This document shows positions 5,101-61,977 of a stretch of DNA of 64,000 bases, piece after piece (position 1 is the first letter of the stretch; the number at the start of each line of letters is the position of its first letter). This DNA is from Steromphala cineraria (taxonomy: Eukaryota; Mollusca; Gastropoda; Trochida; Trochidae): positions 33,116,301-33,180,300 of the forward strand of contig OU744734.1 of NCBI GenBank assembly GCA_916613615.1. The letters are read 5' to 3'. A program made the position numbers and the translations under genes. The notes under the pieces were generated by a model that saw only the letters and a list, made by a program, of their open reading frames with translations, was not told the origin of the DNA and ran no database searches.

Positions 5101-8100
5101 ATTGTGGAGTGCAGTTGAGTTTATATGATAGGGAGAGAACGCATCCAGCATTACGAAAGCGAAACGCCCCTATACAATCCATCCATTTTTCGATCTGCTT
5201 AAGTATACGTACACAACTATACGGATATGCATTATGTTATTGAAATGTTATCTTTTAACTGATAAAATACAGCAAGCTAAAGCAAAACTTTATGTCAATA
5301 CATGACTTACATTTGCAATGTTTTTGTCGAATGAATGTTCGATATTATCATGCTGAAGCTTTAGAATCTAAGCAAGCCAATCATTACCAACAGAAACATG
5401 TTTAAACATGATGTAGGAAATAATGGGTATTCAAACTGCAGTTACGTCTGAAGCGGAACCCCCCTCTAATGTACACAAAATATACCCCACGTGTACCCCC
5501 CTTTTTGTATTATTTAATTTATTCGAATGCTTTATTTTCAAATAACCAGAGATTATATACATCTGTATATATAGTCTCTGAAATATCTCACCAGTGCCGA
5601 TGACAACTCTTTCCTCGGAGCCATTAAGGAACCCCCTCATTATAAGGCCTCGAGTCTCGTCATACCACACTACCTGGCGTCTCAACCAATCATAGCGCAC
5701 AATGGTTGGTTTATTAGACGGCAATACCCCCACTCCGTTCACAGTGTTGTCTTGGAGTACTTGGTAGATGCTGTTGTCGGATCCATCGATCACCAGGCTG
5801 AAGTCCTCCTCAACTACATCTGATGTAAGAATAAAGAATGACAAATATAGGTATAGAAGTCCTCCTCAACTACATCTGATGTAAGGATAAAGAATGACAA
5901 ATATAGGTATAGAAGTCCTCCTCAACTACATCTGATGTAAGAATAAAGAATGACAAAAATAGGTATAGAAGTCCTCCTCAACTACATCTGATATAAGGAT
6001 AGAGAATGACAAATATAGGTATAGAAGTCCTCCTCAACTACATCTGATATAAGAATAAAGAATGACAAATATAGGTATAGAAGTCCTCCTCAACTACATC
6101 TGATGTAAGAATAAAGAATGACAAATATAGGTATAGAAGTCCTCCTCAATTACATCTGATGTAAGAATAAAGAATGACAAATATAGGTATAGAAGTCCTC
6201 CTCCACTACATCTGATGTAAGAATAAAGAATGACAAATATAGGTATAGAAGTCCTCCTCAACTACATCTGATGTAAGGATAAAGAATGACAAATATAGGT
6301 ATAGAAGTCCTCCTCAACTACATCTGATGTAAGAAAAAGAGAGCAAATATAGGTATAGAAGTCCTCCTCAACTACATCTGATATAAGAATATACAGAGCA
6401 AATATAGGTATAGAAGTCCTCCTCAACTACATCTGATATAAGAATATACAGAGCAAATATAGGTATAGAAGTCCTCCTCAACTACATCTGATGTAAGAAT
6501 AGAGAATGACAAATATAGGTATAGAAGTCCTCCTCAACTACATCTGATGTAAGAATAAAGAATGACAAATATAGGTATAGAAGTCCTCCTCAACTACATC
6601 TGATGTAAGGATAAAGAATGACAAATATAGGTATAGAAGTCCTCCTCAACTACATCTGATGTAAGAATAAAGAATGACAAATATAGGTATAGAAGTCCTC
6701 CTCAACTACATCTGATATAAGAAAAAGAGAGCAAATATAGGTATAGAAGTCCTCCTCAACTACATCTGATATAAGAATATACAGAGCAAATATAGGTATA
6801 GAAGTCCTCCTCAACTACATCTGATGTAAGAATAAAGAATGACAAATATAGGTATAGAAGTCCTCCTCAACTACATCTGATGTAAGGATAAAGAATGACA
6901 AATATAGGTATAGAAGTCCTCCTCAACTACATCTGATGTAAGAATAAAGAATGACAAATATAGGTATAGAAGTCCTCCTCAACTACATCTGATGTAAGAA
7001 TAAAGAATGACAAATATAGGTATAGAAGTCCTCCTCAACTACATCTGATATAAGAATAAAGAATGACAAATATAGGTATAGAAGTCCTCCTCAACTACAT
7101 CTGATGTAAGAATAAAGAATGACAAATATAGGTATAGAAGTCCTCCTCAACTACATCTGATATAAGAATATACAGAGCAAATATAGGTATAGAAGTCCTC
7201 CTCAACTACATCTGATATAAGAATAAAGAATGACAAATATAGGTATAGAAGTCCTCCTCAACTACATCTGATATAAGAATAAAGAATGACAAATATAGGT
7301 ATAGAAGTCCTCCTCAACTACATCTGATGTAAGAATAAAGAATGACAAATATAGGTATAGAAGTCCTCCTCAACTACATCTGATATAAGAATAAACAATG
7401 ACAAATATAGGTATAGAAGTCCTCCTCAACTACATCTGATATAAGAATAAAGAATGACAAATATAGGTATAGAAGTCCTCCTCAACTACATCTGATGTAA
7501 GAATAAAGAATGACAAATATAGGTATAGAAGTCCTCCTCAACTACATCTGATGTAAGAATAAAGAATGACAAATATAGGTATAGAAGTCCTCCTCCACTA
7601 CATCTGAAGTAAGAATAAAGAATGACAAAAATAGGTATAGAAGTCCTCCTCAACTACATCTGATGTAAGGATAAAGAATGACAAATATAGGTATAGAAGT
7701 CCTCCTCAACTACATCTGATATAAGAATAAAGAATGACAAATATAGGTATAGAAGTCCTCCTCAACTACATCTGATATAAGAATAGAGAATGACAAATAT
7801 AGGTATAGAAGTCCTCCTCAACTACATCTGATATAAGAATAAAGAATGACAAATATAGGTATAGAAGTCCTCCTCAACTACATCTGATGTAAGAATAGAG
7901 AATGACAAATATAGGTATAGAAGTCCTCCTCAACTACATCTGATGTAAGAATAGAGAATGACAAATATAGGTATAGAAGTCCTCCTAAACTACATCTGAT
8001 ATAAGAATAAAGAATGACAAATATAGGTATAGAAGTCCTCCTCAACTACATCTGATGTAAGAATAGAGAATGACAAATATAGGTATAGAAGTCCTCCTCA

Positions 8101-11100
8101 ACTACATCTGATGTAAGAATAAAGAATGACAAATATAGGTATAGAAGTCCTCCTCAACTACATCTGATGTAAGGATAAAGAATGACAAATATAGGTATAG
8201 AAGTCCTCCTCAACTACATCTGATGTAAGAATAAAGAATGACAAATATAGGTATAGAAGTCCTCCTAAACTACATCTGATATAAGAATAAAGAATGACAA
8301 ATATAGGTATAGAAGTCCTCCTCAACTACATCTGATGTAAGAATAGAGAATGACAAATATAGGTATAGAAGTCCTCCTCAACTACATCTGATGTAAGAAT
8401 AAAGAATGACAAATATAGGTATAGAAGTCCTCCTCAACTACATCTGATGTAAGGATAAAGAATGACAAATATAGGTATAGAAGTCCTCCTCAACTACATC
8501 TGATGTAAGAATAAAGAATGACAAATATAGGTATAGAAGTCCTCCTCAACTACATCTGATGTAAGAATAGAGAATGACAAATATAGGTATAGAAGTCCTC
8601 CTCAACTACATCTGATGTAAGAATAAAGAATGACAAATATAGGTATAGAAGTCCTCCTCAACTACATCTGATATAAGAATAAAGAATGACAAATATAGGT
8701 ATAGAAGTCCTCCTCAACTACATCTGATGTAAGAATAGAGAATGACAAATATAGGTATAGAAGTCCTCCTCAACTACATCTGATGTAAGAATAGAGAATG
8801 ACAAATATAGGTATAGAAGTCCTCCTCAACTACATCTGATGTAAGAATAGAGAATGACAAATATAGGTATAGAAGTCCTCCTTAACTACATCTGATGTAA
8901 GGATAAAGAATGACAAATATAGGTATAGAAGTCCTCCTCAACTACATCTGATGTAAGGATAAAGAATGACAAATATAGGTATAGAAGTCCTCCTCAACTA
9001 CATCTGATGTAAGAATAAAGAATGACAAATATAGGTATAGAAGTCCTCCTCAACTACATCTGATACAAGGATAAAGAATGACCAATATAGGTATAGAAAT
9101 CCTCCTCAACTACATCCGATGTAAGGACAAAGAATGACAAATATAGGTATAGAAGTCCTCCTCAACTACATCTGATATAAGAAAAAGAGAGCAAATATAG
9201 GTATAGAAGTCCTCCTCAACTACATCTGATGTAAGAATAAAGAATGACAAATATAGGTATAGAAGTCCTCCTCAACTACATCTGATATAAGAAAAAGAGA
9301 GCAAATATAGGTATAGAAGTCCTCCTCAACTACATCTGATATAAGAATAGAGAATGACAAATATAGGTATAGAAGTCCTCCTCAACTACATCCGATGTAA
9401 GGACAAAGAATGACAAATATAGGTATAGAAGTCCTCCTCAACTACATCTGATATAAGAAAAAGAGAGCAAATATAGGTATAGAAGTCCTCCTCAACTACA
9501 TCTGATGTAAGAATAAAGAATGACAAATATAGGTATAGAAGTCCTCCTCAACTACATCTGATATAAGAAAAAGAGAGCAAATATAGGTATAGAAGTCCTC
9601 CTCAACTACATCTGATGTAAAAATAAAGAATGACAAATATAGGTATAGAAGTCCTCCTCAACTACATCTGATGTAAGGATAAAGAATGACAAATATAGGT
9701 ATAGAAGTCCTCCTCAACTACATCTGATGTAAGAATAAAGAATGACAAATATAGGTATAGAAGTCCTCCTAAACTACATCTGATGTAAGGATAAAGAATG
9801 ACAAATATAGGTATAGAAGTCCTCCTCAACTACATCTGATGTAAGGATAAAGAATGACAAATATAGGTATAGAAATCCTCCTCAACTACATCCGATGTAA
9901 GGACAAAGAATGACAAATATAGGTATAGAAGTCCTCCTCAACTACATCTGATATAAGAAAAAGAGAGCAAATATAGGTATAGAAGTCCTCCTCAACTACA
10001 TCTGATATAAGAATATACAGAGCAAATATAGGTATAGAAGTCCTCCTCAACTACATCTGATGTAAGAATAAAGAATGACAAATATAGGTATAGAAGTCCT
10101 CCTCAACTACATCTGATGTAAGAATAAAGAATGACAAATATAGGTATAGAAGTCCTCCTCAACTACATCTGATGTAAGAATAAAGAATGACAAATATAGG
10201 TATAGAAGTCCTCCTCAACTACATCTGATGTAAGAATAAAGAGTGACAAATATAGGTATAGAAGTCCTCCTCAACTACATCTGATATAAGAATAAAGAAT
10301 GACAAATATAGGTATAGAAGTCCTCTGCAACTACATCTGATGTAAGGATAAAGAATGACAAATATAGGTATAGAAGTCCTCCTCAACTACATCTGATATA
10401 AGAATATACAGAGCAAATATAGGTATAGAAGTCCTCCTCAACTACATCTGATGTAAGGATAAAGAGAGCAAATATAGGTATAGATGTCCTCCTCAACTAC
10501 ATCTGATGTAAGAATAAAGAATGAAAAATATAGGTATAGAAGTCCTCTTCAACTACATCTGATGTAAGAATAAAGAATGACAAATATAGGTATAGAAGTC
10601 CTCTTCAACTACATCTGATGTAAGGATAAAGAATGACAGATATAGGTATGGAAGTCCTCCTCAACTACATCTGATGCAAGGATAAAGAATGACAAATATA
10701 GGTATAGAAGTCCTCCTCAACTACATCTGATGTAAGAATAAAGAATGACAAATATAGGTATAGAAGACCTCCTCAACTACATCTGATGTAAGGATAAAGA
10801 ATGACAAATATAGGTATAGAAGTCCTCCTCAACTACATCTGATGTAAGAATAAAGAATGACAAATATAGGTATAGAAGTCTTCCTCAACTACATCTGATA
10901 TAAGAAAAAGAGAGCAAATATAGGTATAGAAGTCCTCCTCAACTACATCTGATATAAGAATATACAGAGCAAATATAGGTATAGAAGTCCTTCTAAACTA
11001 CATCTGATGTAAGAATAAAGAATGACAAATATAGGTATAGAAGTCCTCCTCAACTACATCTGATGTAAGGATAAAGAATGACAAATATAGGTATAGAAGT

Positions 11101-14100
11101 CCTCCCCAACTACATCTGATGTAAGAATAAAGAATGACAAATATAGGTATAGAAGTCCTCCTCAACTACATCTGATGTAAGGATAAAGAATGACAAATAT
11201 AGGTATAGAAGTCCTCCTCAACTACATCTGATATAAGAAAAAGAGAGCAAATATAGGTATAGAAGTCCTCCTTAACTACATCTGATGTAAGAATAAAGAA
11301 TGACAAATATAGGTATAGAAGTCCTCCTCAACTACATCTGATGTAAGAATAAAGAATGACAAATATAGGTATAGAAGTCCTCTGCAACTACATCTGATGT
11401 AAAGATAAAGAGAGCAAATATAGGTATAGATGTCCTCCTCAACTACATCTGATGTAAGAATAAAGAATGACAAATATAGGTATAGAAGTCCTCCTCAACT
11501 ACATCTGATGTAAGAATAAAGAATGACAAATATAGGTAAAGAAGTCCTCCTCAACTACATCTGATGTAAGAATAAAGAATGACAAATATAGGTATAGAAG
11601 TCCTCCTCCACTACATCTGATGTAAGAATAAAGAATGACAAATATAGGTATAGAAGTCCTCCTCAACTACATCTGATGTAAGGATAAAGAATGACAAATA
11701 TAGGTATAGAAGTCCTCCTCAACTACATCTGATGTAAGAAAAAGAGAGCAAATATAGGTATAGAAGTCCTCCTCAACTACATCTGATATAAGAATATAGA
11801 TTGACAAATATAGGTAAAGAAGTCCTCCTCAACTACATCTGATGTAAGAATAAAGAATGACAAATATAGGTATAGAAGTCCTCCTCAACTACATCTGATG
11901 TAAGAATAAAGAATGACAAATATAGGTATAGAAGTCCTCCTCAACTACATCTGATGTAAGAATAAAGAGAGCAAATATAGGTATAGAAGTCCTCCTCAAC
12001 TACATCTGATGTAAGAATAGAGAATGACAAATATAGGTAAAGAAGTCCTCCTCAACTACATCTGATGTAAGGATAAAGAATGACAAATATAGGTATAGAA
12101 GTCCTCCTAAACTACATCTGATATAAGAATAAAGAATGACAAATATAGGTATAGAAGTCCTCCTCAACTACATCTGATGTAAGAATAAGGAATGACAAAT
12201 ATAGGTATAGAAGTCCTCCTCAACTACATCTGATGTAAGAATAAAGAATGACAAATATATGTATAGAAGTCCTCCTCAACTACATCTGATGTAAGAATAA
12301 AGAATGACAAATATAGGTATAGAAGTCCTCCTCAACTACATCTGATATAAGAATGAAGAATGACAAATATAGGTATAGAAGTCCTCCTCAACTACATCTG
12401 ATGTAAGGATAAAGAATGACAAATATAGGTATAGAAGTCCTCCTAAACTACATCTGATATAAGAATAAAGAATGACAAATATAGGTATAGAAGTCCTCCT
12501 CAACTACATCTGATGTAAGAATAAGGAATGACAAATATAGGTATAGAAGTCCTCCTCAACTACATCTGATGTAAGAATAAAGAATGACAAATATAGGTAT
12601 AGAAGTCCTCCTCAACTACATCTGATGTAAGAATAAAGAATGACAAATATATGTATAGAAGTCCTCCTCAACTACATCTGATGTAAGAATAAAGAATGAC
12701 AAATATAGGTATAGAAGTCCTCCTCAACTACATCTGATGTAAGGATAAAGAATGACAAATATAGGTATAGAAGTCCTCCTCAACTACATCTGATGTAAGG
12801 ATAAAGAATGACAAATATAGGTATAGAAGTCCTCCTCAACTACATCTGATGTAAGAATAAAGAATGACAAATATAGGTATAGAAGTCCTCCTCAACTACA
12901 TCTGATGTAAGAATAAAGAATGACAAATATAGGTATAGAAGTCCTCCTCAACTACATCTGATATAAGAATATACAGAGCAAATATAGGTATAGAAGTCCT
13001 CCTCAACTACATCTGATGTAAGAATGAAGAATGACAAATATAGGTATAGAAGTCCTCCTCAACTACATCTGATGTAAGAATAAAGAATGACCAATATAGG
13101 TATAGAAATCCTCCTCAACTACATCCGATGTAAGGACAAAGAATGACAAATATAGGTATAGAAGTCCTCCTCAACTACATCTGATATAAGAAAAAGAGAG
13201 CAAATATAGGTATAGAAGTCCTCCTCAACTACATCTGATGTAAGAATAAAGAATGACAAATATAGGTATAGAAGTCCTCTGCAACTACATCTGATGTAAG
13301 GATAAAGAGAGCAAATATAGGTATAGATGTCCTCCTCAACTACATCTGATGTAAGAATAAAGAATGTAAAATATAGGTATAGAAGTCCTCTTCAACTACA
13401 TCTGATGTAAGAATAAAGAATGACAAATATAGGTATAGAAGTCCTCTTCAACTACATCTGATGTAAGAATAAAGATTGACAAATATAGGTATAGAAGTCC
13501 TCCTCAACTACATCTGATGTAAGGATAAAGAATGACAGATATAGGTATGGAAGTCCTCCTCAACTACATCTGATGTAAGAATAAAGAATGACAAATATAG
13601 GTATAGAAGTCCTCCTCAACTACATCTGATGTAAGAATAAAGAATGACAAATATAGGTATAGAAGTCCTCCTCAACTACATCTGATATAAGAATAAAGAA
13701 TGACAAATATAGGTATAGAAGTCCTCCTCAACTACATCTGATGTAAGAATAAAGAATGACAAATATAGGTATAGAAGCCCTCCTCAACTACATCTGATGT
13801 AAGAATAAAGAATGACAGATATATGTATAGAAGTCCTCCTCAACTACATCTGATGTAAGGATAAAGAATGACAAATATAGGTATAGAAGTCCTCCTCAAC
13901 TACATCTGATATAAGAAAAAGAGAGCAAATATAGGTATAGAAGTCCTCCTCAACTACATCTGATATAAGAATATACAGAGCAAATATAGGTATAGAAGTC
14001 CTCCTCAACTACATCTGATGTAAGAATAAAGAATGACAGATATATGTATAGAAGTCCTCCTCAACTACATCTGATATAAGAATGAAGAATGACAAATATA

Positions 14101-17100
14101 GGTATAGAAGTCCTTCTCAACTACATCTGATATAAGGATAAAGAATGACAAATATAGGTATAGAAGTCCTCCTCAACTACATCTGATGTAAGAATAGAGA
14201 ATGACAAATATAGGTATAGAAGTCCTCCTCAACTACATCTGATGTAAGGATAAACAATGACAAATATAGGTATAGAAGTCCTCCTCAACTACATCTGATA
14301 TAAGAATAAAGAATGACAAAAATAGGTATAGAAGTCCTCCTCAACTACATCTGATGTAAGAATAAAGAATGACAAATATAGGTATAGAAGTCCTCTTCAA
14401 CTACACCTGATATAAGAATAAAGAATGACAAATATAGGTATAGAAGTCCTCCTCAACTACATCTGATATAAGAATAAAGAATGACAAATATAGGTATAGA
14501 AGTCCTCCTCAACTACATCTGATGTAAGAAAAAGAGAGCAAATATAGGTATAGAAGTCCTCCTCAACTACATCTGATGTAAGAATAAAGAATGACAAATA
14601 TAGGTATAGAAGTCCTCCTCAACTACATCTGATATAAGAATATACAGAGCAAATATAGGTATAGAAGTCCTCCTCAACTACATCTGATGTAAGAATAAAG
14701 AATGACAAATATAGGTATAGAAGTCCTCCTCAACTACATCTGATGTAAGAATAAAGATTGACAAATATAGGTATAGAAGTCCTCCTCAACTACATCTGAT
14801 GTAAGAATAAAGAATGACAGATATATGTATAGAAGTCCTCCTCAACTACATCTGATGTAAGGATAAAGAATGACAAATATAGGTATAGAAGTCCTCCTCA
14901 ACTACATCTGATATAAGAAAAAGAGAGCAAATATAGGTATAGAAGTCCTCCTCAACTACATCTGATATAAGAATATACAGAGCAAATATAGGTATAGAAG
15001 TCCTCCTCAACTACATCTGATGTAAGAATAAAGAATGACAAATATAGGTATAGAAGTCCTCCTCAACTACATCTGATATAAGAATGAAGAATGACAAATA
15101 TAGGTATAGAAGTCCTCCTCAACTACATCTGATGTAAGGATAAAGAATGACAAATATAGGTATAGAAGTCCTCCTAAACTACATCTGATATAAGAATAAA
15201 GAATGACAAATATAGGTATAGAAGTCCTCCTCAACTACATCTGATATAAGAATAAAGAATGACAAATATAGGTATAGAAGTCCTCCTCAACTACATCTGA
15301 TGTAAGAATAAAGAATGACAAATATAGGTATAGAAGTCCTCCTCAACTACATCTGATGTAAGAATAAAGAATGACAAATATAGGTATAGAAGTCCTCCTC
15401 AACTACATCTGATGTAAGAATAAAGAATGACAAATATAGGTATAGAAGTCCTCCTCAACTACATCTGATATAAGAATATACAGAGCAAATATAGGTATAG
15501 AAGTCCTCCTCAACTACATCTGATGTAAGGATAAAGAATGACAAATATAGGTATAGAAGTCCTCCTCAACTACATCTGATGTAAGAATAAAGAATGACAA
15601 ATATATGTATAGAAGTCCTCCTCAACTACATCTGATGTAAGAATAAAGAATGACAAATATAGGTATAGAAGTCCTCCTCAACTACATCTGATATAAGAAT
15701 AAAGAATGACAAATATAGGTATAGAAGTCCTCCTCAACTACATCTGATATAAGAATGAAGAATAACAAATATAGGTATAGAAGTCCTCCTCAACTACATC
15801 TGATGTAAGGATAAAGAATGACAAATATAGGTATAGAAGTCCTCCTCAACTACATCTGATATAAGAATAAAGAATGACAAATATAGGTATAGAAGTCCTC
15901 CTCAACTACATCTGATGTAAGAATAAAGAATGACAAATATAGGTATAGAAGTCCTCCTCAACTACATCTGATGTAAGAATAAAGAATGACAAATATATGT
16001 ATAGAAGTCCTCCTCAACTACATCTGATGTAAGAATAAAGAATGACAAATATAGGTATAGAAGTCCTCCTCAACTACATCTGATATAAGAATATACAGAG
16101 CAAATATAGGTATAGAAGTCCTCCTCAACTACATCTGATGTAAGAATAAAGAATGACAAATATAGGTATAGAAGTCCTCCTCAACTACATCTGATGTAAG
16201 AATAAAAAATGACAAATATAGGTATAGAAGTCCTCCTCAACTACATCTGATGTATGAATGAAGAATGACAAATATAGGTATAGAAGTCCTCCTCAACTAC
16301 ATCTGATGTAAGAATAAAGAATGACAAATATAGGTATAGAAGTCCTCCTCAACTACATCTGATGTAAGGATAAAGAATGACAAATATAGGTATAGAAGTC
16401 CTCCTCAACTACATCTGATGTAAGGATAAAGAGTGACAAATATAGATATAGAAGTCCTCCTCAACTACATATGATATAAGAATATACAGAGCAAATATAG
16501 GTATAGAAGTCCTCCTCAACTACATCTGATGTAAGAATAAAGAATGACAAATATAGGTATAGAAGTCCTCCTCAACTACATCTGATGTAAGAATAAAAAA
16601 TGACAAATATAGGTATAGAAGTCCTCCTCAACTACATCTGATGTATGAATGAAGAATGACAAATATAGGTATAGAAGTCCTCCTCAACTACATCTGATGT
16701 AAGAATAAAGAATGACAAATATAGGTATAGAAGTCCTCCTCAACTACATCTGATGTAAGAATAAAGAATGACAAATATATGTATAGAAGTCCTCCTCAAC
16801 TACAGCTGATGTAAGAATAAAGAATGACAAATATAGGTATAGAAGTCCTCCTCAACTACATCTGATATAAGAATATACAGAGCAAATATAGGTATAGAAG
16901 TCCTCCTCAACTACATCTGATGTAAGAATAAAGAATGACAAATATAGGTATAGAAGTCCTCCTCAACTACATCTGATATAAGAATATACAGAGCAAATAT
17001 AGGTATAGAAGTCCTCCTCAACTACATCTGATGTCAGGATAAAGAATGACAAATATAGGTATAGAAGTCCTCCTCAACTACATCTGATATAAGAATAAAG

Positions 17101-20100
17101 AATGACAAATATAGGTATAGAAGTCCTCCTCAACTACATCTGATGTAAGAATAGAGAATGCCAAATATAGGTATAGAAGTCCTCTTCAACTACATCTGAT
17201 GTAAGGATAAAGAATGACAAATATAGGTATAGAAGTCCTCCTCAACTACATCTGATGTAAGAATGAAGAATAACAAATATAGGTATAGAAGTCCTCCTCA
17301 ACTACATCTGATGTAAGGATAAAGAATGACAAATATAGGTATAGAAGTCCTCCTCAACTACATCTGATATAAGGATAAAGAATGACAAATATAGGTATAG
17401 AAGTCCTCCTCAACTACATCTGATATAAGAATAAAGAATGACAAATATAGGTATAGAAGTCCTCCTCAACTACATCTGATGTAAGAATAAAGAATGACAA
17501 ATATAGGTATAGAAGTCCTCCTCAACTACATCTGATGTAAGAATAAAGAATGACAAATATATGTATAGAAGTCCTCCTCAACTACATCTGATGTAAGAAT
17601 AAAGAATGACAAATATAGGTATAGAAGTCCTCCTCAACTACATCTGATATAAGAATAAAGATTGACAAATATAGGTATAGAAGTCCTCCTCAACTACATC
17701 TGATGTAAGAATAAAGAATGACAAATATAGGTATAGAAGTCCTCCTCAACTACATCTGATGTAAGGATAAAGAATGACAAATATAGGTATAGAAGTCCTC
17801 CTCATCTACATCTGATATAAGAATAAAGAATGACAAATATAGGTATAGAAGTCCTCCTCATCTACATCTGATATAAGAATAAAGAATGACAAATATAGGT
17901 ATAGAAGTCCTCCTCAACTACATCTGATATAAGAATAAAGAATGACAAATATAGGTATAGAAGTCCTCCTCAACTACATCTGATGTAAGGATAAAGAATG
18001 ACAAATATAGATATAGAAGTCCTCCTCAACTACATATGATATAAGAATATACAGAGCAAATATAGGTATAGAAGTCCTCCTCAACTACATCTGATGTAAG
18101 AATAAAGAATAACAAATATAGGTATAGAAGTCCTCCTCAACTACATCTGATGTAAGAATAAAGAATGACAAATATAGGTATAGAAGTCCTCCTCAACTAC
18201 ATCTGATGTAAGGATAAAGAATGACAAATATAGGTATAGAAGTCCTCCTCAACTACATCTGATGTAAGAATAAAGAATGACAAATATAGGTATAGAAGTC
18301 CTCCTCAACTACATCTGATGTAAGAATGAAGAATGACAAATATAGGTATAGAAGTCCTCCTCAACTACATCTGATGTAAGAATAAAGAATGACAAATATA
18401 GGTATAGAAGTCCTCCTCCACTACATCTGATGTAAGAATAAAGAATGACAAATATAGGTATAGAAGTCCTCCTCAACTACATCTGATGTAAGAATAAAGA
18501 ATGACAAATATAGGTATAGAAGTCCTCCTCAACTACATCTGATGTAAGAAAAAGAGAGCAAATATAGGTATAGAAGTCCTCCTCAACTACATCTGATATA
18601 AGAATATACAGAGCAAATATAGGTATAGAAGTCCTCCTCAACTACATCTGATGTAAGAAAAAAGAATGACAAATATAGGTATAGAAGTCCTCCTCAACTA
18701 CATCTGATGTAAGAATAAAGAATGACAAATATAGGTATAGAAGTCCTCCTCAACTACATCTGATGTAAGGATAAAGAATGACAAATATAGGTATAGAAGT
18801 CCTCCTCAACTACATCTGATGTAAGAAAAAGAGAGCAAATATAGGTATAGAAGCCCTCCTCAACTACATCTGATATAGGAATATACAGAGCAAATATAGG
18901 TATAGAAGTCCTCCTCAACTACATCTGATGTAAGAATAAAGAATGACAAATATAGGTATAGAAGTCCTCCTCAACTACATCTGATGTAAGAATAAAGAAT
19001 GACAAATATAGGTATAGAAGTCCTCCTCAACTACATCTGATATAAGAATAAAGAATGACAAATATAGGTATAGAAGTCCTCCTCAACTACATCTGATGTA
19101 AGAATGAAGAATGACAAATATAGGTATAGAAGTCCTCCTCAACTACATCTGATGTAAGAATAAAGAATGACAAATATAGGTATAGAAGTCCTCCTCCACT
19201 ACATCTGATGTAAGAATAAAGAATGACAAATATAGGTATAGAAGTCCTCCTCAACTACATCTGATGTAAGAAAAAAGAATGACAAATATAGGTATAGAAG
19301 TCCTCCTCAACTACATCTGATGTAAGGATAAAGAATGACAAATATAGGTATAGAAGTCCTCCTCAACTACATCTGATGTAAGAATAAAGAATGACAAATA
19401 TAGGTATAGAAGTCCTCCTCAACTACATCTGATGTAAGAAAAAGAGAGCAAATATAGGTATAGAAGTCCTCCTCAACTACATCTGATGTAAGAATAAAGA
19501 ATGACAAATATAGGTATAGAAGTCCTCCTCAACTACATCTGATGTAAGAATAAAGAATGACAAATATAGGTATAGAAGTCCTCCTCAACTACATCTGATG
19601 TAAGAAAAAGAGAGCAAATATAGGTATAGAAGTCCTCCTCAACTACATCTGATATAAGAATATACAGAGCAAATATAGGTATAGAAGTCCTCCTCAACTA
19701 CATCTGATGTAAGAATAAAGAATGACAAATATAGGTATAGAAGTCCTCCTCAACTACATCTGATGTAAGAATAAAGAATGACAAATATAGGTATAGAAGT
19801 CCTCCTCAACTACATCTGATGTAAGGATAAAGAATGACAAATATAGGTATAGAAGTCCTCCTCAACTACATCTGATGTAAGAAAAAGAGAGCAAATATAG
19901 GTATAGAAGTCCTCCTCAACTACATCTGATATAGGAATAAACAGAGCAAATATAGGTATAGAAGTCCTCCTCAACTACATCTGATGTAAGAATAAAGAAT
20001 GACAAATATAGGTATAGAAGTCCTCCTCAACTACATCTGATGTAAGAATAAAGAATGACAAATATAGGTATAGAAGTCCTCCTCAACTACATCTGATATA

Positions 20101-29100: not shown

Positions 29101-32100
29101 CCTCAACTACATCTGATGTAAGAAAAAGAGAGCAAATATAGGTATAGAAGTCCTCCTCAACTACATCTGATATAAGAATATACAGAGGAAATATAGGTAT
29201 AGAAGTCCTCCTCAACTACATCTGATGTAAGAATAAAGAATGACAAATATAGGTATAGAAGTCCTCCTCAACTACATCTGATGTAAGAATAAAGAATGAC
29301 AAATATAGGTATAGAAGTCCTCCTCAACTACATCTGATGTAAGGATAAAGAATGACAAATATAGGTATAGAAGTCCTCCTCAACTACATCTGATGTAAGG
29401 ATAAAGAATGACAAATATAGGTATAGAAATCCTCCTCAACTACATCCGATGAAAGGATAAAGAATGACAAATATAGGTATAGAAGTCCTCCTCAACTACA
29501 TCTGATATAAGAAAAAGAGAGCAAATATAGGTATAGAAGTCCTCCTCAACTACATCTGATATAAGAATATACAGAGCAAATATAGGTATAGAAGTCCTCC
29601 TCAACTACATCTGATGTAAGAATAAAGAATGACAAATATAGGTATAGAAGTCCTCCTCAACTACATCTGATGTAAGAATAAAGAATGACAAATATAGGTA
29701 TAGAAGTCCTCCTCAACTACATCTGATGTAAGAATAAAGAATGACAAATATAGGTAAAGAAGTCCTCCTCAACTACATCTGATGTAAGGATAAAGAGAGC
29801 AAATATAGGTATAGATGTCCTTCCAACTACATCTGATGTAAGAATAAAGAATGAAAAATATAGGTATAGAAGTCCTCTTCAACTACACCTGATGTAAGAA
29901 TAAAGAATGACATATATAGGTATAGAAGTCCTCCTCAACTACATCTGATGTAAGAATAAAGATTGACAAATATAGGTATAGAAGTCCTCCTCAACTACAT
30001 CTGATATAAGAATAAAGAATGACAAATATAGGTATAGAAGTCCTCCTCAACTACATCTGATGTAAGAATAAAGAATGACAAATATAGGTATAGAAGTCCT
30101 CCTCAACTACATCTGATATAAGGATAAAGAATGACAAATATAGGTATAGAAGTCCTCCTCAACTACATCTGATATAAGAATAAAGAATGACAAATATAGG
30201 TATAGAAGTCCTCCTCAACTACATCTGATATAAGAATATACAGAGCAAATATAGGTATAGAAGTCCTCCTCAACTACATCTGATGTAAGAATAAAGAATG
30301 ACAAATATAGGTATAGAAGTCCTCCTCAACTACATCTGATGTAAGGATAAAGAATGACAAATATAGGTATAGAAGTCCTCCTCAACTACATCTGATGTAA
30401 GGATAAAGAATGACAAATATAGGTATAGAAGTCCTCCTCAACTACATCTGATATAAGAATGAAGAATGACAAATATAGGTATAGAAGTCCTCCTCAACTA
30501 CATCTGATGTAAGGATAAACAATGACAAATATAGGTATAGAAGTCCTCCTCAACTACATCTGATATAAGAATAAAGAATGACAAATATAGGTATAGAAGT
30601 CCTCCTCAACTACATCTGATGTAAGAATAAAGAATGACAAATACAGGTATAGAAGTCCTCCTCAACTACATCTGATGTAAGGATAAAGAATGACAAATAT
30701 AGGTATAGAAGTCCTCCTCAACTACATCTGATGTCAGAAAAAGAGAGCAAATATAGGTATAGAAGTCCTCCTCAACTACATCTGATATAAGAATATACAG
30801 AGCAAATATAGGTATAGAAGTCCTCCTCAACTACATCTGATGTAAGAATAAAGAATGACAAATATAGGTATAGAAGTCCTCCTCAACTACATCTGATGTA
30901 AGAATAAAGAATGACAAATATAGGTATAGAAGTCCTCCTCAACTACATCTGATGTAAGGATAAAGAATGACAAATATAGGTATAGAAGTCCTCCTCAACT
31001 ACATCTGATAAAAGAATAAAGAATGACAAATATAGGTATAGAAGTCCTCCTCAACTACATCTGATGTAAGAATAAAGAATGACAAATATAGGTATAGAAG
31101 TCCTCCTCAACTACATCTGATGTAAGGATAAACAATGACAAATATAGGTATAGAAGTCCTCCTCAACTACATCTGATGTAAGAATAAAGAATGACAAATA
31201 TAGGTATAGAAGTCCTCCTCAACTACATCTGATGTAAGAAAAAGAGAGCAAATATAGGTATAGATGTCCTTCCAACTACATCTGATGTAAGAATAAAGAA
31301 TGAAAAATATAGGTATAGAAGTCCTCCTCAACTACATCTGATGTAAGGATAAAGAATGACAAATATAGGTATAGAAGTCCTCCTCATCTACATCTGATAT
31401 AAGAATAAAGAATGACAAATATAGGTATAGAAGTCCTCCTCAACTACATCTGATATAAGAATATACAGAGGAAATATAGGTATAGAAGTCCTCCTCAACT
31501 ACATCTGATGTAAGAATAAAGAATGACAAATATAGGTATAGAAGTCCTCCTCAACTACATCTGATGTAAGAATAAAGAATGACAAATATAGGTATAGAAG
31601 TCCTCCTCAACTACATCTGATGTAAGGATAAAGAATGACAAATATAGGTATAGAAGTCCTCCTCAACTACATCTGATGTAAGGATAAAGAATGACAAATA
31701 TAGGTATAGAAATCCTCCTCAACTACATCCGATGAAAGGATAAAGAATGACAAATATAGGTATAGAAGTCCTCCTCAACTACATCTGATATAAGAAAAAG
31801 AGAGCAAATATAGGTATAGAAGTCCTCCTCAACTACATCTGATATAAGAATATACAGAGCAAATATAGGTATAGAAGTCCTCCTCAACTACATCTGATAT
31901 AAGAATATACAGAGCAAATATAGGTATAGAAGTCCTCCTCAACTACATCTGATGTAAGAATAAAGAATGACAAATATAGGTATAGAAGTCCTCCTCAACT
32001 ACATCTGATGTAAGAATAAAGAATGACAAATATAGGTATAGAAGTCCTCCTCAACTACATCTGATGTAAGAATAAAGAATGACAAATATAGGTAAAGAAG

Positions 32101-35100
32101 TCCTCCTCAACTACATCTGATGTAAGGATAAAGAGAGCAAATATAGGTATAGATGTCCTTCCAACTACATCTGATGTAAGAATAAAGAATGAAAAATATA
32201 GGTATAGAAGTCCTCTTCAACTACACCTGATGTAAGAATAAAGAATGACATATATAGGTATAGAAGTCCTCCTCAACTACATCTGATGTAAGAATAAAGA
32301 TTGACAAATATAGGTATAGAAGTCCTCAACTACATCTGATATAAGAATAAAGAATGACAAATATAGGTATAGAAGTCCTCCTCAACTACATCTGATGTAA
32401 GAATAAAGAATGACAAATATAGGTATAGAAGTCCTCCTCAACTACATCTGATATAAGGATAAAGAATGACAAATATAGGTATAGAAGTCCTCCTCAACTA
32501 CATCTGATATAAGAATGAAGAATGACAAATATAGGTATAGAAGTCCTCCTCAACTACATCTGATGTAAGGATAAACAATGACAAATATAGGTATAGAAGT
32601 CCTCCTCAACTACATCTGATATAAGAATAAAGAATGACAAATATAGGTATAGAAGTCCTCCTCAACTACATCTGATGTAAGAATAAAGAATGACAAATAT
32701 AGGTATAGAAGTCCTCCTCAACTACATCTGATGTAAGAATAAAGAATGACAGATATATGTATAGAAGTCCTCCTCAACTACATCTGATGTCAGGATAAAG
32801 AATGACAAATATAGGTATAGAAGTCCTCCTCAACTACATCTGATATAAGAAAAAGAGAGCAAATATAGGTATAGAAGTCCTCCTCAACTACATCTGATAT
32901 AAGAATATACAGAGCAAATATAGGTATAGAAGTCCTCCTCAACTACATCTGATGTAAGAATAAAGAATGACAAATATAGGTATAGAAGTCCTCCTCAACT
33001 ACATCTGATGTAAGGATAAAGAATGACAAATATAGGTATAGAAGTCCTCCTCAACTACATCTGATGTAAGAATAAAGAATGACAAATATAGGTATAGAAG
33101 TCCTCCTCAACTACATCTGATGTAAGGATAAAGAATGACAAATATAGGTATAGAAATCCTCCTCAACTACATCCGATGTAAGGATAAAGAATGACAAATA
33201 TAGGTATAGAAGTCCTCCTCAACTACATCTGATATAAGAAAAAGAGAGCAAATATAGGTATAGAAGTCCTCCTCAACTATATCTGATATAAGAATATACA
33301 GAGCAAATATAGGTATAGAAGTCCTCCTCAACTACATCTGATGTAAGAATAAAGAATGACAAATATAGGTATAGAAGTCCTCCTCAACTACATCTGATGT
33401 AAGAATAAAGAATGACAAATATAGGTATAGAAGTCCTCCTCAACTACATCTGATGTAAGAATAAAGAATGACAAATATAGGTATAGAAGTCCTCCTCAAC
33501 TACATCTGATGTAAGAATAAAGAATGACAAATATAGGTATAGAAGTCCTCTGCAACTACATCTGATGTAAGGATAAAGAGAGCAAATATAGGTATAGATG
33601 TCCTTCCAACTACATCTGATGTAAGAATAAAGAATGAAAAATATAGGTATAGAAGTCCTCTTCAACTACACCTGATGTAAGAATAAAGAATGACAAATAT
33701 AGGTATAGAAGTCCTCTGCAACTACATCTGATGTAAGGATAAAGAGAGCAAATATAGGTATAGATGTCCTTCCAACTACATCTGATGTAAGAATAAAGAA
33801 TGAAAAATATAGGTATAGAAGTCCTCTTCAACTACACCTGATGTAAGGATAAAGAATGACAAATATAGGTATAGAAGTCCTCCTCAACTACATCTGATGT
33901 AAGAATAAACAATGACAAATATAGGTATAGAAGTCCTCCTCAACTACATCTGATGTAAGAATAAAGATTGACAAATATAGGTATAGAAGTCCTCCTCGAC
34001 TACATCTGATGTAAGGATAAAGAATGACAAATATAGGTATAGAAGTCCTCCTCAACTACATCTGATATAAGAATGAAGAATGACAAATATAGGTATAGAA
34101 GTCCTCCTCAACTACATCTGATGTAAGGATAAACAATGACAAATATAGGTATAGAAGTCCTCCTCAACTACATCTGATATAAGAATAAAGAATGACAAAT
34201 ATAGGTATAGAAGTCCTCCTCAACTACATCTGATGTAAGAATAAAGAATGACAAATATAGGTATAGAAGTCCTCCTCAACTACATCTGATGTAAGAATAA
34301 AGAATGACAAATATAGGTATAGAAGTCCTCCTCAACTACATCTGATGTAAGGATAAAGAATGACAAATATAGGTATAGAAGTCCTCCTCAACTACATCTG
34401 ATGTAAGAATAAAGAATGACAAATATAGGTATAGAAGTCCTCCTCAACTACATCTGATGTAAGAATAAAGAATGACAAATATAGGTATAGAAGTCCTCCT
34501 CAACTACATCTGATGTAAGAATAAAGAATGACAAATATATGTATAGAAGTCCTCCTCAACTACATCTGATGTAAGAATAAAGAATGACAAATATAGGTAT
34601 AGAAGTCCTCCTCAACTACATCTGATATAAGAATAAAGATTGACAAATATAGGTATAGAAGTCCTCCTCAACTACATCTGATGTAAGGATAAAGAATGAC
34701 AAATATAGGTATAGAAGTCCTCCTCATCTAAATCTGATATAAGAATAAAGAATGACAAATATAGGTATAGAAGTCCTCCTCAACTACATCTGATGTAAGA
34801 ATAAAGAATGACAAATACAGGTATAGAAGTCCTCCTCAACTACATCTGATGTAAGGATAAAGAATGACAAATATAGGTATAGAAGTCCTCCTCAACTACA
34901 TCTGATGTCAGAAAAAGAGAGCAAATATAGGTATAGAAGTCCTCCTCAACTACATCTGATATAAGAATATACAGAGCAAATATAGGTATAGAAGTCCTCC
35001 TCAACTACATCTGATGTAAGAATAAAGAATGACAAATATAGGTATAGAAGTCCTCCTCAACTACATCTGATGTAAGAATAAAGAATGACAAATATAGGTA

Positions 35101-38100
35101 TAGAAGTCCTCCTCAACTACATCTGATGTAAGGATAAAGAATGACAAATATAGGTATAGAAGTCCTCCTCAACTACATCGGATGTAAGGATAAAGAATGA
35201 CAAATATAGGTATAGAAGTCCTCCTCAACTACATCTGATGTAAGAATAAAGAATGACAAATATAGGTATAGAAGTCCTCCTCAACTACATCTGATGTAAG
35301 AATAAAGAATGACAAATATAGGTATAGAAGTCCTCCTCAACTACATCTGATATAAGAATGAAGAATGACAAATATAGGTATAGAAGTCCTCCTCAACTAC
35401 ATCTGATGTAAGGATAAAGAATGACAAATATAGGTATAGAAGTCCTCCTCAACTACATCTGATATAAGAATAAAGAATGACAAATATAGGTATAGAAGTC
35501 CTCCTCAACTACATCTGATGTAAGAATAAAGAATGACAAATATAGGTATAGAAGTCCTCCTCAACTACATCTGATGTAAGAATAAAGAATGACAGATATA
35601 GGTATGGAAGTCCTCCTCAACTACATCTGATGTAAGAATAAAGAATGACAAATATAGGTATAGAAGTCCTCCTCAACTACATCTGATGTAAGAATAAAGA
35701 ATGACAAATATAGGTATAGAAGTCCTCCTCAACTACATCTGATGTAAGGATAAAGAATGACAAATATAGATATAGAAGTCCTCCTCAACTACATCTGATG
35801 TAAGGATAAAGAATGACAAATATAGATATAGAAGTCCTCCTCAACTACATCTGATATAAGAATATACAGAGCAAATATAGGTATAGAAGTCCTCCTCAAC
35901 TACATCTGATGTAAGAATAAAGAATGACAAATATAGGTATAGAAGTCCTCCTCAACTACATCTGATGTAAGAATAAAGAATGACAAATATAGGTATAGAA
36001 GTCCTCCTCAACTACATCTGATGTAAGAATAAAGAATGACAAATATAGGTATAGAAGTCCTCCTCAACTACATCTGATGTAAGAATAAAGAATGACAAAT
36101 ATAGGTATAGAAGTCCTCTGCAACTACATCTGATGTAAGGATAAAGAGAGCAAATATAGGTATAGATGTCCTTCCAACTACATCTGATGTAAGAATAAAG
36201 AATGAAAAATATAGGTATAGAAGTCCTCTTCAACTACACCTGATGTAAGAATAAAGAATGACATATATAGGTATAGAAGTCCTCCTCAACTACATCTGAT
36301 GTAAGAATAAAGATTGACAAATATAGGTATAGAAGTCCTCCTCGACTACATCTGATGTAAGGATAAAGAATGACAAATATAGGTATAGAAGTCCTCCTCA
36401 ACTACATCTGATATAAGAATGAAGAATGACAAATATAGGTATAGAAGTCCTCCTCAACTCCATCTGATGTAAGGATAAACAATGACAAATATAGGTATAG
36501 AAGTCCTCCTCAACTACATCTGATATAAGAATAAAGAATGACAAATATAGGTATAGAAGTCCTCCTCAACTACATCTGATGTAAGAATAAAGAATGACAA
36601 ATATAGGTATAGAAGTCCTCCTCAACTACATCTGATGTAAGAATAAAGAATGACAAATATATGTATAGAAGTCCTCCTCAACTACATCTGATGTAAGAAT
36701 AAAGAATGACAAATATAGGTATAGAAGTCCTCCTCAACTACATCTGATATAAGAATAAAGATTGACAAATATAGGTATAGAAGTCCTCCTCAACTACATC
36801 TGATGTAAGGATAAAGAATGACAAATATAGGTATAGAAGTCCTCCTCATCTACATCTGATATAAGAATAAAGAATGACAAATATAGGTATAGAAGTCCTC
36901 CTCAACTACATCTGATGTAAGAATAAAGAATGACAAATACAGGTATAGAAGTCCTCCTCAACTACATCTGATGTAAGGATAAAGAATGACAAATATAGGT
37001 ATAGAAGTCCTCCTCAACTACATCTGATGTCAGAAAAAGAGAGCAAATATAGGTATAGAAGTCCTCCTCAACTACATCTGATATAAGAATATACAGAGCA
37101 AATATAGGTATAGAAGTCCTCCTCAACTACATCTGATGTAAGAATAAAGAATGACAAATATAGGTATAGAAGTCCTCCTCAACTACATCTGATGTAAGAA
37201 TAAAGAATGACAAATATAGGTATAGAAGTCCTCCTCAACTACATCTGATGTAAGGATAAAGAATGATAAATATAGGTATAGAAGTCCTACTCAACTACAT
37301 CTGATGTAAGGATAAAGAATGATAAATATAGGTATAGAAGTCCTACTCAACTACATCTGATGTAAGAATAAAGAATGAAAAATATAGGTATAGAAGTCCT
37401 CCTCAACTACATCTGATGTAAGAATAAAGAATGACAAATATAGGTATAGAAGTCCTCCTCAACTACATCTGATGTAAGGATAAAGAATGACAAATATAGG
37501 TATAGAAGTCCTCCTCAACTACATCTGATATAAGAATAAAGAATGACAAATATAGGTATAGAAGTCCTCCTCAACTACATCTGATGTAAGAATAAAGAAT
37601 GACAAATATAGGTATAGAAGTCCTCCTCAACTACATCTGATGTAAGGATAAAGAATGACAAATATAGATATAGAAGTCCTCCTCAACTACATCTGATGTA
37701 AGGATAAAGAATGACAAATATAGATATAGAAGTCCTCCTCAACTACATCTGATATAAGAATATACAGAGCAAATATAGGTATAGAAGTCCTCCTCAACTA
37801 CATCTGATGTAAGAATAAAGAATGACAAATATAGGTATAGAAGTCCTCCTCAACTACATCTGATGTAAGAATGAAGAATGACAAATATAGGTATAGAAGT
37901 CCTCCTCAACTACATCTGATGTAAGAATGAAGAATGACAAATATAGGTATAGAAGTCCTCCTCAACTACATCTGATGTAAGAATAAAGAATGACAAATAT
38001 AGGTATAGAAGTCCTCCTCAACTACATCTGATGTAAGAATAAAGAATGACAAATATAGGTATAGAAGTCCTCCTCAACTACATCTGATGTAAGGATAAAC

Positions 38101-41100
38101 AATGACAAATATAGGTATAGAAGTCCTCCTCAACTACATCTGATGTAAGAATAAAGAATGACAAATATAGGTATAGAAGTCCTCCTCAACTACATCTGAT
38201 GTCAGGATAAAGAATGACAAATATAGGTATAGAAGTCCTCCTCAACTACATCTGATATAAGAATAAAGAATGACAAATATAGGTATAGAAGTCCTCCTCA
38301 ACTACATCTGATGTAAGAATAGAGAATGCCAAATATAGGTATAGAAGTCCTCCTCAACTACATCTGATGTAAGAATAAAGAATGACAAATATAGGTATAG
38401 AAGTCCTCCTCAACTACATCTGATGTAAGAATAAAGAATGACAAATATAGGTATAGAAGTCCTCCTCAACTACATCTGATGTAAGAATAAAGAATGACAA
38501 ATATAGGTATAGAAGTCCTCCTCAACTACATCTGATGTCAGGATAAAGAATGACAAATATAGGTATAGAAGTCCTCCTCAACTACATCTGATATAAGAAT
38601 AAAGAATGACAAATATAGGTATAGAAGTCCTCCTCAACTACATCTGATGTAAGAATAGAGAATGCCAAATATAGGTATAGAAGTCCTCCTCAACTACATC
38701 TGATGTAAGAATAAAGAATGACAAATATAGGTATAGAAGTCCTCCTCAACTACATCTGATGTAAGAATAAAGAATGACAAATATAGGTATAGAAGTCCTC
38801 CTCAACTACATCTGATGTCAGGATAAAGAATGACAAATATAGGTATAGAAGTCCTCCTCAACTACATCTGATATAAGAATTAAGAGAGCAAATATACCTA
38901 CTTCTCTAGTCACGAGTTCTTGCATCGTCTAAACTTATTTGAGAATAAAATCTTGCTGATGTTGTATCGTATTTACAATGTTACTATGTTAAGTAATATG
39001 AATAAGCAATTTAGTTACACAATAATATGATATTATATATAAATCCCAGACGTCCAACGTCACATAAAGATGGTTTGACATTGAAAGATTATGTTCCTTG
39101 TGATAAAGAGTGTGTACGCCAAATTAAATTCCATTGTGAGTGGGAAGATCATGTTTCAATTGTTTGAATTGTATCTTCCTAAAAACTTAGCATATAAAAG
39201 CTAGTAACGACTCAACTACCCACCGGTGTACATGGTCTATAGAGTCATTGTGCCAATTCGATTGTGTTATAGCAGCTTGTTACACAGAATTCACGAGAAT
39301 CAGAATATTCTTTAAAACTAAATCAAAAAACCGATTAAATCGGCCAACAAATATCAAGATGGGTGGGTTACCCGATTCCTTGCTGAATGTAGTGAGAGTT
39401 TGAAGGGTGATTCCCTGGTCCACACTGAGACACGAGCTTAATAATGTGCATTCTAAATGTGCCTCTGTTCACCCAGCAGTATTAATTGGGTACCTGGTGA
39501 AAGTTGTGTCAAGTTTTAATCACCCTTCTCATGTATAAATGTTGCATTCTACTATACCGGAAATGCATCTCTTTTCGGCAAGCAACCGGAAGCCGAATTT
39601 ACAGCCGCATGCATTCCCGGCGTCTCGTGGTAGACAAACTTGATCGCATCCTCCATTGTCTCTGACACACCCGTCTGAAATAAGGAGAAACGTTTCCAAA
39701 AAGTGGTTTTCCCTTTAAAGTTGTGATGTTGTAAGGTGATTTCATTTCACGAAGGCTCTCAATTGGTACGTTTATGACATCTGACATTGATATTTTAGTT
39801 ATGATAAAAATATGTAACTTTAAACTGCGCAGGCTTCGGTTACTTACACTATCTATCAAAACAATTATTTAAAAATCTAAATTAACGAAAACAAGATACA
39901 TGCCATTCAAATAAAATAACGTACTTGAAGATTTCTGTCATAAGTAATTATGTTATGGATAAGAAATGATAATAGGGAATTATTATGAATAAGGATGTTT
40001 GGCCGTGCAATTTTGCCTAATGGACATAGGTCCGACGTAAAACCACGAGGGCAAACATTCATATTCTTGATGATGCTCATTGATCATGTTTTATCTATTT
40101 TAAAACTAATAAACTAAATTTCAATTCCGTTGATTTTACTGATGCCAAGAAGATTAGTAAGTACAACCGTTACTACCAAAACTTGAACCTTTGTTACAAG
40201 AGGGCCTAACAAAATGTTCAGCTCAGCTCAGCCCAGTGGCCCAGTCTTATGAGCGTTGAGCTCAGACAGTTGGAGTGTGAATATTAGTTCGAGACGGCAT
40301 ATCACCAAAACAGATTCTAAAAGTCATACATTCGGACAGAACATTCTATCGTTCAAAAAACGTTATTTGAAGAGGGATAATTTATCGCTGTCCTTAGCGA
40401 CTGTGTTTATATTAACACGCATCCGAGGGCCTTTGCTCAAATAATTCCCTTGTCGCGTGAGGCAGAATGATAGAAGAACATGACGTCACTTATGAAAGAC
40501 TGAGAAGATGGGTTCAACAAACAACCTGTGTCTCTTTTATATTCGTCGGCGTCGAAGACAACTATATCGGTAACCATGGTGATGTCGGGTATTGTGAATG
40601 TTGTTGGCTCTGCGATGTTGCCGTTGTCCTGGATGACAGACACACTCATGTTGACGCTGTTTGTTGTTGTTGTAACCGTCCATGCTAGGTAATCCTGGAA
40701 TGATAAATATATTTACCTTGTAGGTACACCAAAGAACTATCAGTTGAAATATTCATAGTATACAAAACTAGGTGAACACATGATCGAGTACCGTTTGAGG
40801 TAATTATTTGTCTTGATGAGAGTTTTTGATTACATAATTATCAATAACGGCTGTCAAAGTCATGTTCTACACTGTAGGGTTACCGTATTTAGCGGTATGC
40901 AGCGCAGTGAGCGCACATTGAGTTATGAAACTTTAGGTTAATAAAGCTGTCTGCGAATGGGCAATGCTAAAGTCCCTACGCTTATTTACAGAACACACAC
41001 GACTCCATTCTCGATTATCCAGAGTTTACGTTCCGATAATATCTCCACTAACCTCTGGAACCAATATGGACAAAACGCGATTCACAAATTACCTGCCCTT

Positions 41101-61204: not shown

Positions 61205-61977
61205 TTAACACGCAGGTAAATTGACGATAAATCAAAAGTTCTGCTGTGACCTTGAAAACAATGTGAAGTCCATCAAAATTGACTTTGCCCTGCGTCTTCC
61301 CTATAAGATGGTTTGCAGAAGTTGTGAAGATAATCTAGTGAACATTTCTAGAGATATCCCGCTGACAAAATTAAAATGCAGGTTTCAATTCTGAAATTTT
61401 AAAAGCCTCACTGTGACCTTGAAAATAATGTGAAAGTCACCAAATTCGACTGGGCCTGGTGCCTTCCCAATAAGTTGCTTTGTTTAAATTATGAAGAGAA
61501 TCCAGTAAATGGTTTTATGAGATATCCGCTGACAAGCTTAAAATGCAGGTTTCAATGCTGAAATTTTAAAAGCCTCACTGTGACCTTGAAAATAATGTGA
61601 AAGTCACCAAATTCGACTGGGCCTGGTGCCTTCCCAATAAGTTGCTTTGTTTAAATTATGAAGAGAATCCAGTAAATGGTTTTATGAGATATCCGCTGAC
61701 AAGCTTAAAATGCAGGTTTCAATGCTGAAATTTTCAAAGCCTCGCTGTGACCTTGAAAATAATGCAAGATGCACTGTGTAAGTTATGAAGAGAATCCAGT
61801 TAATGGTTCTTGAGATATCCCGCTGACAAGGGTAAAATTGTAAAGTTTCGTTATGACCTTGAAATGAAGGTCAAGGTCATGAACCTCTATAGGGACCTCA
61901 CTTTCATGGCGATGAAGCTACATACAAAAAATTTAAAGAATCCGGTCAACAGTTTATGAGTTATTCAATTTCATTTC

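Follow-up and report, generated by a model that had tools for sequence, protein, structure and literature searches.

The locus and its repeat array

The minus strand of the 64,000-nt window analyzed here (positions 33,116,301–33,180,300 of contig OU744734.1, assembly GCA_916613615.1, from the gastropod Steromphala cineraria; all coordinates below are those of the window) carries an LRP-like receptor gene, one intron of which is largely made up of tandem copies of its own 3′ splice site. Tandem Repeats Finder detected a single array at this locus, at positions 5800–38896 (33,097 nt), with a period of 56 nt, 593.9 copies, and 94% matches. Splitting the array yielded 594 units, of which 479 are 56 nt long, whereas 70, 42, 2, and 1 are 55, 54, 53, and 49 nt long, respectively. 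A 33-kb repeat is not explicable by chance.

Read on the minus strand, the 56-nt consensus unit consists of 36 intron nucleotides, TATACCTATATTTGTCATTCTTTATTCTTACATCAG, which end in TTCTTACATCAG, and 20 exon nucleotides, ATGTAGTTGAGGAGGACTTC, with which the exon at 5819–5592 begins. A previous, sequence-only reading of the window had described the unit as an acceptor with its AG and exactly the first 20 nt of the exon (5800–5819), present in some 590 copies, and both statements are borne out by the consensus and by the count of 594. That reading placed the array at 5820–38896; the far end stands, whereas the near end moves to 5800 because the array includes the exonic 20 nt. The exon-adjacent unit comprises the true acceptor (5820–5855, 36 nt, TATACC…CATCAG), which is identical to the consensus, and the repeated coding 20 nt (5800–5819), which encode (D)VVEEDF. 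The unit at the other end (38848–38896) is 49 nt long and lacks the TATACC start. The intron as a whole (5820–39557, phase 1) measures 33,738 nt, 33,077 nt of which are array, and has the donor CCG/GTATAG at 39558 (the slash marks the exon/intron border). It is thus far from the megabase scale of gigantic satellite introns.

The units are similar (mean pairwise identity 94.8%) but not uniform, with 107 distinct types among the aligned units. The complete consensus, from −36 to +20, is common to 175 of the 594 units, the true exon-adjacent site among them; the acceptor AG is intact in 579 units, and the exonic 20 nt are unchanged in 505. Exact repeats within the array reach 939 nt at most.

Since the array, at 33 kb, is longer than the 12 to 20 kb average fragments used for the published assembly (xgSteCine2.1; 283 scaffolds, 1,270,504,078 bp; PMC11074690), one could suspect that a few true copies were inflated during assembly or that allelic arrays were joined. 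We consider such an artifact very improbable. The assembly was built from PacBio HiFi reads with hifiasm (PMC11074690), and it should be possible to place 12-kb reads in an array with 107 unit types and no exact repeat beyond 939 nt.

The host gene

A hand-made model of 13 exons (a–m), for all of which in-phase GT–AG sites could be chosen, contains no stops in 812 codons. The exons on either side of the array intron are exon j (39558–39674), an EGF-like exon directly upstream of the array intron that is supported by alignment, the exon model, and tblastn, and exon k (5592–5819; 228 nt; donor CTG/GTGAGA), which has an open frame, is entered in phase 1, and matches amino acids 655–730 of a Haliotis homolog, P0001 (1222 amino acids), at 42% identity. 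The claim that the exons flanking the array are in phase thus holds, the border intron being in phase 1. The sequence-only reading numbered exon k as exon 12, which would fit if one signal-peptide exon lies upstream of the model.

Searches were performed with an earlier, 826-residue version of the model, in which the acceptors of exons f and g lay too early; the same version was used for the homolog alignment, from which these two acceptors were then placed in the final model. Pfam matches were to LDL-receptor class B and FXa_inhibition (EGF-like), and the best matches in the PDB were LRP2, LRP4, and LRP6, followed by VLDLR, LRP8, and LDLR. The top three of six homologs, LRP4-like proteins of Haliotis asinina, Haliotis rufescens, and Haliotis rubra, showed 45 to 46% identity over 97% of the queried part. 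A tblastn search with P0001 gave ordered matches for amino acids 17–1215 on both sides of the array: ten before it, three after it within the window, and more beyond the window, to position −4948, with the caveats that amino acids 960–1024 match twice and that some short stretches are unmatched. A search with P0003 gave one EGF cross-match out of order. From these alignments, the host gene is identified as an LRP-like receptor gene collinear with the abalone proteins.

Exon k, the start of which was set by homology and phase, opens a propeller directly after the EGF exon. The (D)VVEEDF encoded at its start aligns with VVQKDF, VVRKDF, and VVQKDF in the three Haliotis homologs, likewise directly after the EGF domain, whereas the VV..DF pattern is not shared by the other three of the six aligned homologs, from Mytilus, Pocillopora, and Ruditapes. 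The alignment with the Haliotis proteins shows that the border is real and that the unit owes its exonic third to an old coding stretch; judging from these proteins, the 20 nt are ancestral coding sequence at least back to abalones. The array directly abuts this exon (5592–5819). No paralog with a single-copy version of the border was found among the 32 matches listed, 13 of which are the host gene itself and 19 distant YWTD relatives (23–46% identity); as 56 of 98 candidates were scored, these numbers are lower bounds. Rfam gave no matches at the gathering score.

Upstream of exon j on the minus strand, the model places YWTD propeller exons a (47236–47686) and b (46507–46759), exon c (45922–46069), the EGF-like exon d (45669–45779), and exons e (45031–45288), f (44401–44554), g (43786–43920), h (42061–42172), and i (40526–40694); exons l (2794–2977) and m (2003–2121) follow exon k. 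Apart from f and g, these exons are supported by both the model and tblastn (exon i with P0001 only), and matches continue past the window after exon m. The two places downstream that both match amino acids 960–1024 of P0001 (−1409 to −1585 and −3814 to −4008) perhaps reflect a duplicated exon. The intron between exons h and i contains 103-nt inverted repeats (41006–41108 and 41945–42047) that are 93% complementary and 836 nt apart; the pair resembles a terminal-inverted-repeat element, one end of which is separated from exon h by some 13 nt.

The unit was found at one locus

Genomes of this kind often contain tandem repeats, and a pre-existing satellite or transposon could in principle have supplied the acceptor and the start of the exon. 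We searched the genome (1,270,125,005 bases in 281 contigs) for pieces of the unit. All 352 exact occurrences of a 30-mer spanning the AG lie in the window, as do all 490 matches, at up to three mismatches, of a 31-mer from the intronic part, and no 12-mer taken from the unit is present in the rest of the 64-kb window. An origin from a satellite or transposon, already disfavored by the homology of the exon start to Haliotis, is therefore extremely unlikely, and no support for it was found. The confinement of the unit, combined with the ancestral coding nature of its exonic part, supports the earlier claim that the array arose by duplication and amplification of an intron/exon border.

With units of tens of nucleotides repeated head to tail, the array is a minisatellite, and, because all matches of the 30-mer and the 31-mer fall in the window, a single-locus one. 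It does not fit a satellite DNA family, whose unit would be present at many loci or in large heterochromatic blocks. The array takes in positions 5800–5821, and its unit contains the splice site of exon k, as in a splice-site-spanning variable number tandem repeat (VNTR). Two other tandem arrays are present in the window, at 195–963 (period 148, 5.3 copies) and 61244–61764 (period 167, 3.1 copies).

Growth and variation of the array

Blocks of 8 to 16 units with an identical succession of variants appear more than once in the array, the two longest being repeated 93 and 94 units away, whereas the longest identical block in each of 20 shuffles comprised 5 to 7 units. We infer that these blocks mark block duplication, via unequal exchange or slippage. 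A higher-order repeat of a single period was considered and rejected: the best 25 of 199 lags reached identities of 0.950–0.952, compared with a mean of 0.948. Values so close to the mean leave block duplications only. Polarity of divergence along the array was not significant (Spearman coefficient 0.08, p = 0.052; block-permutation p = 0.066 and 0.19).

The far edge of the array reads GAAGTAGG / TATATTTG. As TATACC is missing here, plain duplication leaves six nucleotides of the first junction unexplained. TATACC is the reverse complement of GGTATA, which is present at the far edge and forms part of the intron donor, and a templated insertion is thus possible, which one junction cannot show. 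CTATACC in the sense consensus unit is also perfectly complementary, over 7 nt, to GGTATAG at the donor of this intron; this may be chance.

Variation among units was also used to assess selection on the decoys, that is, the 593 acceptor copies other than the exon-adjacent one. The decoy AG and the exonic 20 nt vary as much as the rest of the unit, and no extra conservation of the exonic 20 nt was found in the decoys (Mann–Whitney p = 0.35 and 0.36). Substitutions observed in these 20 nt comprise 5 of 11 possible synonymous and 16 of 49 possible nonsynonymous types, and hence no coding constraint is visible. Selection on the decoys was rejected on the grounds that their AG and exonic positions vary like the remainder.

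Splicing of the array intron

To describe the consequences of acceptor choice, every unit was read in silico as an acceptor joined to exon j. Only one of the 579 AG-intact acceptors, the exon-adjacent one, leaves the frame open through exon k; the other 578 lead to a stop after 3 to 75 codons (after 20 codons in 462 of the 578). When scored with a matrix derived from the gene's other 12 acceptors, the true acceptor obtained 8.39. Within the array, 438 of 2346 sense AGs, the true one included, score at least as high, compared with 1.4% of the 1584 sense AGs outside the array, a set that includes the training sites. With so many decoys scoring at least as high as the true site, local sequence cannot mark the right one.

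Predicted local folding gave an unpaired probability of 0.126 for the true AG, versus a mean of 0.058 for the decoys, and z-scores of −2.83, −0.91, and −2.35 for three 112-nt folds. Secondary structure was rejected as the sole discriminator because the true AG ranks only 73rd of 594 in openness.

The number of strong, frame-dead acceptors raises the possibility that the array is a functional splicing rheostat, in which decoy choice, yielding mRNA with a stop, or slow passage through hundreds of acceptors sets the amount of receptor and array length tunes it. The stop reached from each of the 578 AG-intact decoys and the 438 of 2346 AGs (the true one included) that score no lower than the true site would suit such a role, as would the human ABCA7 gene, where longer alleles of a donor VNTR are reported to go with lower expression and altered splicing (PMC5954066). 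The free variation of the decoy AG and exonic 20 nt gives no sign of selection on decoy function, and we regard a rheostat as unlikely. Also unlikely is a working splicing attenuator in which frame-dead acceptors would tie receptor output to array length and AG/GT units would act as correction points, combined with homogenization that rewrites the acceptor and seven exon codons by concerted evolution.

Donors were scored in the same manner (13 gene donors, leave-one-out, 2.24–9.12). The donor of the array intron, CCG/GTATAG at 39558, is the weakest of the 13 modeled (2.24). A weak donor facing hundreds of decoy acceptors could mean that the array has disabled the gene, which would now be a decaying pseudogene. 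This is improbable in view of the absence of stops in 812 codons over 13 exons with in-phase GT–AG sites and of matches that run nearly to the end of the homolog (amino acid 1215 of 1222).

The commonest sense GT of the array, GAT/GTAGTT (559 sites), scores 1.34, below all 13 gene donors. Two other motifs score higher: CAG/GTGTAG, present in 10 of the 594 units, is donor-like and, at 6.02, outscores 8 of the 13 gene donors, and GAG/GTCTTC, present once, scores 2.41, above the weakest gene donor. The ten CAG/GTGTAG units are probably copies of one mutation and may serve as ratchet points or poison donors. In the former case, the array would be removed stepwise by recursive splicing, each ratchet point regenerating a donor, CCG/GTGTAG, that is one position off the original CCG/GTATAG. 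The occurrence of AG/GT in ten units is compatible with this scheme, whereas the other 584 units lack AG/GT, the ten look like one mutation spread by block duplication (units 154–546), and positions +4 and +5 of GTGTAG do not fit the donor consensus. Recursive splicing is, hence, highly unlikely.

Exon definition operates within a size limit. Used with the donor of exon k, 4 of the 593 decoys would give an exon of at most 500 nt and 13 one of at most 1000 nt. These distances, together with the low scores of the common array GTs, imply that nearly all decoys, though not the closest three or four, would be passed over under exon definition.

On the plus strand, that is, antisense to the gene, the unit contains AATAAA and a donor-like GAT/GTAAGA (301 sites, score 3.66). 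Antisense transcripts would thus encounter donor-like sites and poly(A) signals in large numbers.

Discussion

The explanation that we consider probable is that the 3′ splice site of this LRP-like gene gave rise to a single-locus minisatellite, which expanded in blocks and was tolerated because the intact exon-adjacent copy is chosen by exon definition. The anatomy of the array, the uniqueness of the unit, and the block duplications are shown by the sequence, from which the initial event is deduced: a 56-nt stretch across the intron/exon border would have been duplicated in tandem and then expanded to 594 copies in blocks, by unequal exchange or slippage. The added copies all lie upstream of the intact acceptor–exon junction, so that growth of the array does no more than make the intron longer, without altering the coding sequence. 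The spliceosome would use the exon-adjacent acceptor, the sole one closing a 228-nt exon with the downstream donor GTGAGA, as nearly all decoys would lack a usable donor within the range of exon definition. Use of a decoy would lead to an early stop, and the message should be degraded; leakage from the few nearest decoys would give isoforms longer by 56, 112, and 168 nt.

Several points speak against this explanation. The six junction nucleotides, TATACC, are not accounted for by plain duplication, and exon definition alone leaves the three or four nearest decoys in play. First-come splicing would favor the decoys, whose transcription precedes that of the true acceptor by up to 33 kb. The ten CAG/GTGTAG sites and the GAG/GTCTTC site oppose the notion that the array has no usable donor, and the score matrices were built on 12 to 13 hand-chosen sites of one gene. 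Finally, we infer the use of the exon-adjacent acceptor from sequence and the single-copy ancestral state from protein.

Splice-site repeats are known from human genes. The VNTR in intron 18 of ABCA7, with an allele of 9711 bp, has a 25-bp unit that takes in the donor of exon 18, and its longer alleles are associated with lower expression and more skipping of exon 19 (PMC5954066). Like the array described here, this minisatellite starts with a functional splice site of the adjoining exon, and retention of one unit shifts the frame. Its unit lies on the donor (GT) side and, as described, contains no exonic sequence, whereas the present unit has 56 nt, an acceptor, and 20 coding nucleotides, in 594 copies over 33 kb. 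In CBS, the 31-bp VNTR c.1444_1467+7(16_21) covers the border of exon 13 and intron 13 in 16 to 21 copies (PMC2630376, PMC1395315); by its name, the unit spans 24 exonic and 7 intronic nucleotides, resembling the present unit in crossing a border but differing in its donor-side position and copy number. The repeated site in the array intron is an acceptor, in contrast to the donors repeated in CBS and ABCA7. Another CBS variant, 844ins68, duplicates the intron 7/exon 8 junction, with the distal copy strongly favored (PMC2630376). The duplicated site is called a donor in PMC2630376 and a 3′ splice site in the title of the work cited there (Romano 2002). Only two copies are present in 844ins68, unlike in the array, and this variant provides a human precedent for the choice of the distal copy.

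Looser parallels exist as well. The minisatellite of IFI6 (6-16/G1P3) reportedly places multiple splice sites in one transcript, as the array does, but is said to involve donor sites, a short unit, and a small array. Internal tandem repeats that modify human duplicated genes sometimes lie at exon–intron boundaries and alter introns, and they average 30-bp units, four copies, and 160 bp when exonic and boundary cases are pooled (PMC2812944). The gigantic introns of the Drosophila Y genes kl-3 and kl-5 likewise consist mostly of tandem repeats in genes that must be spliced; they are megabase-sized, and no statement that their repeat unit holds a splice site was found in the sections of PMC6508621 covered. 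Tandem duplication of proto-splice sites has been proposed as a source of new introns (PMC2891723), and a Caenorhabditis elegans minisatellite linked to splicing regions (PMC4039745) is not a close match.

The sequence-only reading knew of no described satellite family built on a functional 3′ splice site at this scale. This holds in part: an acceptor-based array of such size was not found among the titles and abstracts listed in the literature searched, from which subscription journals were mostly absent, and this is weak evidence, whereas the array is a single-locus minisatellite and splice-site repeats of the CBS and ABCA7 kind were already described. Compared with the sources cited, the array is an extreme acceptor-side relative of splice-site minisatellites, from which it differs in its acceptor side, its coding content, and its size.

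The array shows that minisatellites can start from a coding border and still leave the reading frame intact, since one undamaged junction remains after tandem duplication across an acceptor. It also amounts to a natural experiment on acceptor choice, in which 175 of 594 units share the sequence from −36 to +20 and one alone serves the protein. If the gene is spliced correctly, neither local sequence nor first-come order can be the reason that this one works, and exon definition, kinetics, or recursive steps must decide which acceptor is used.

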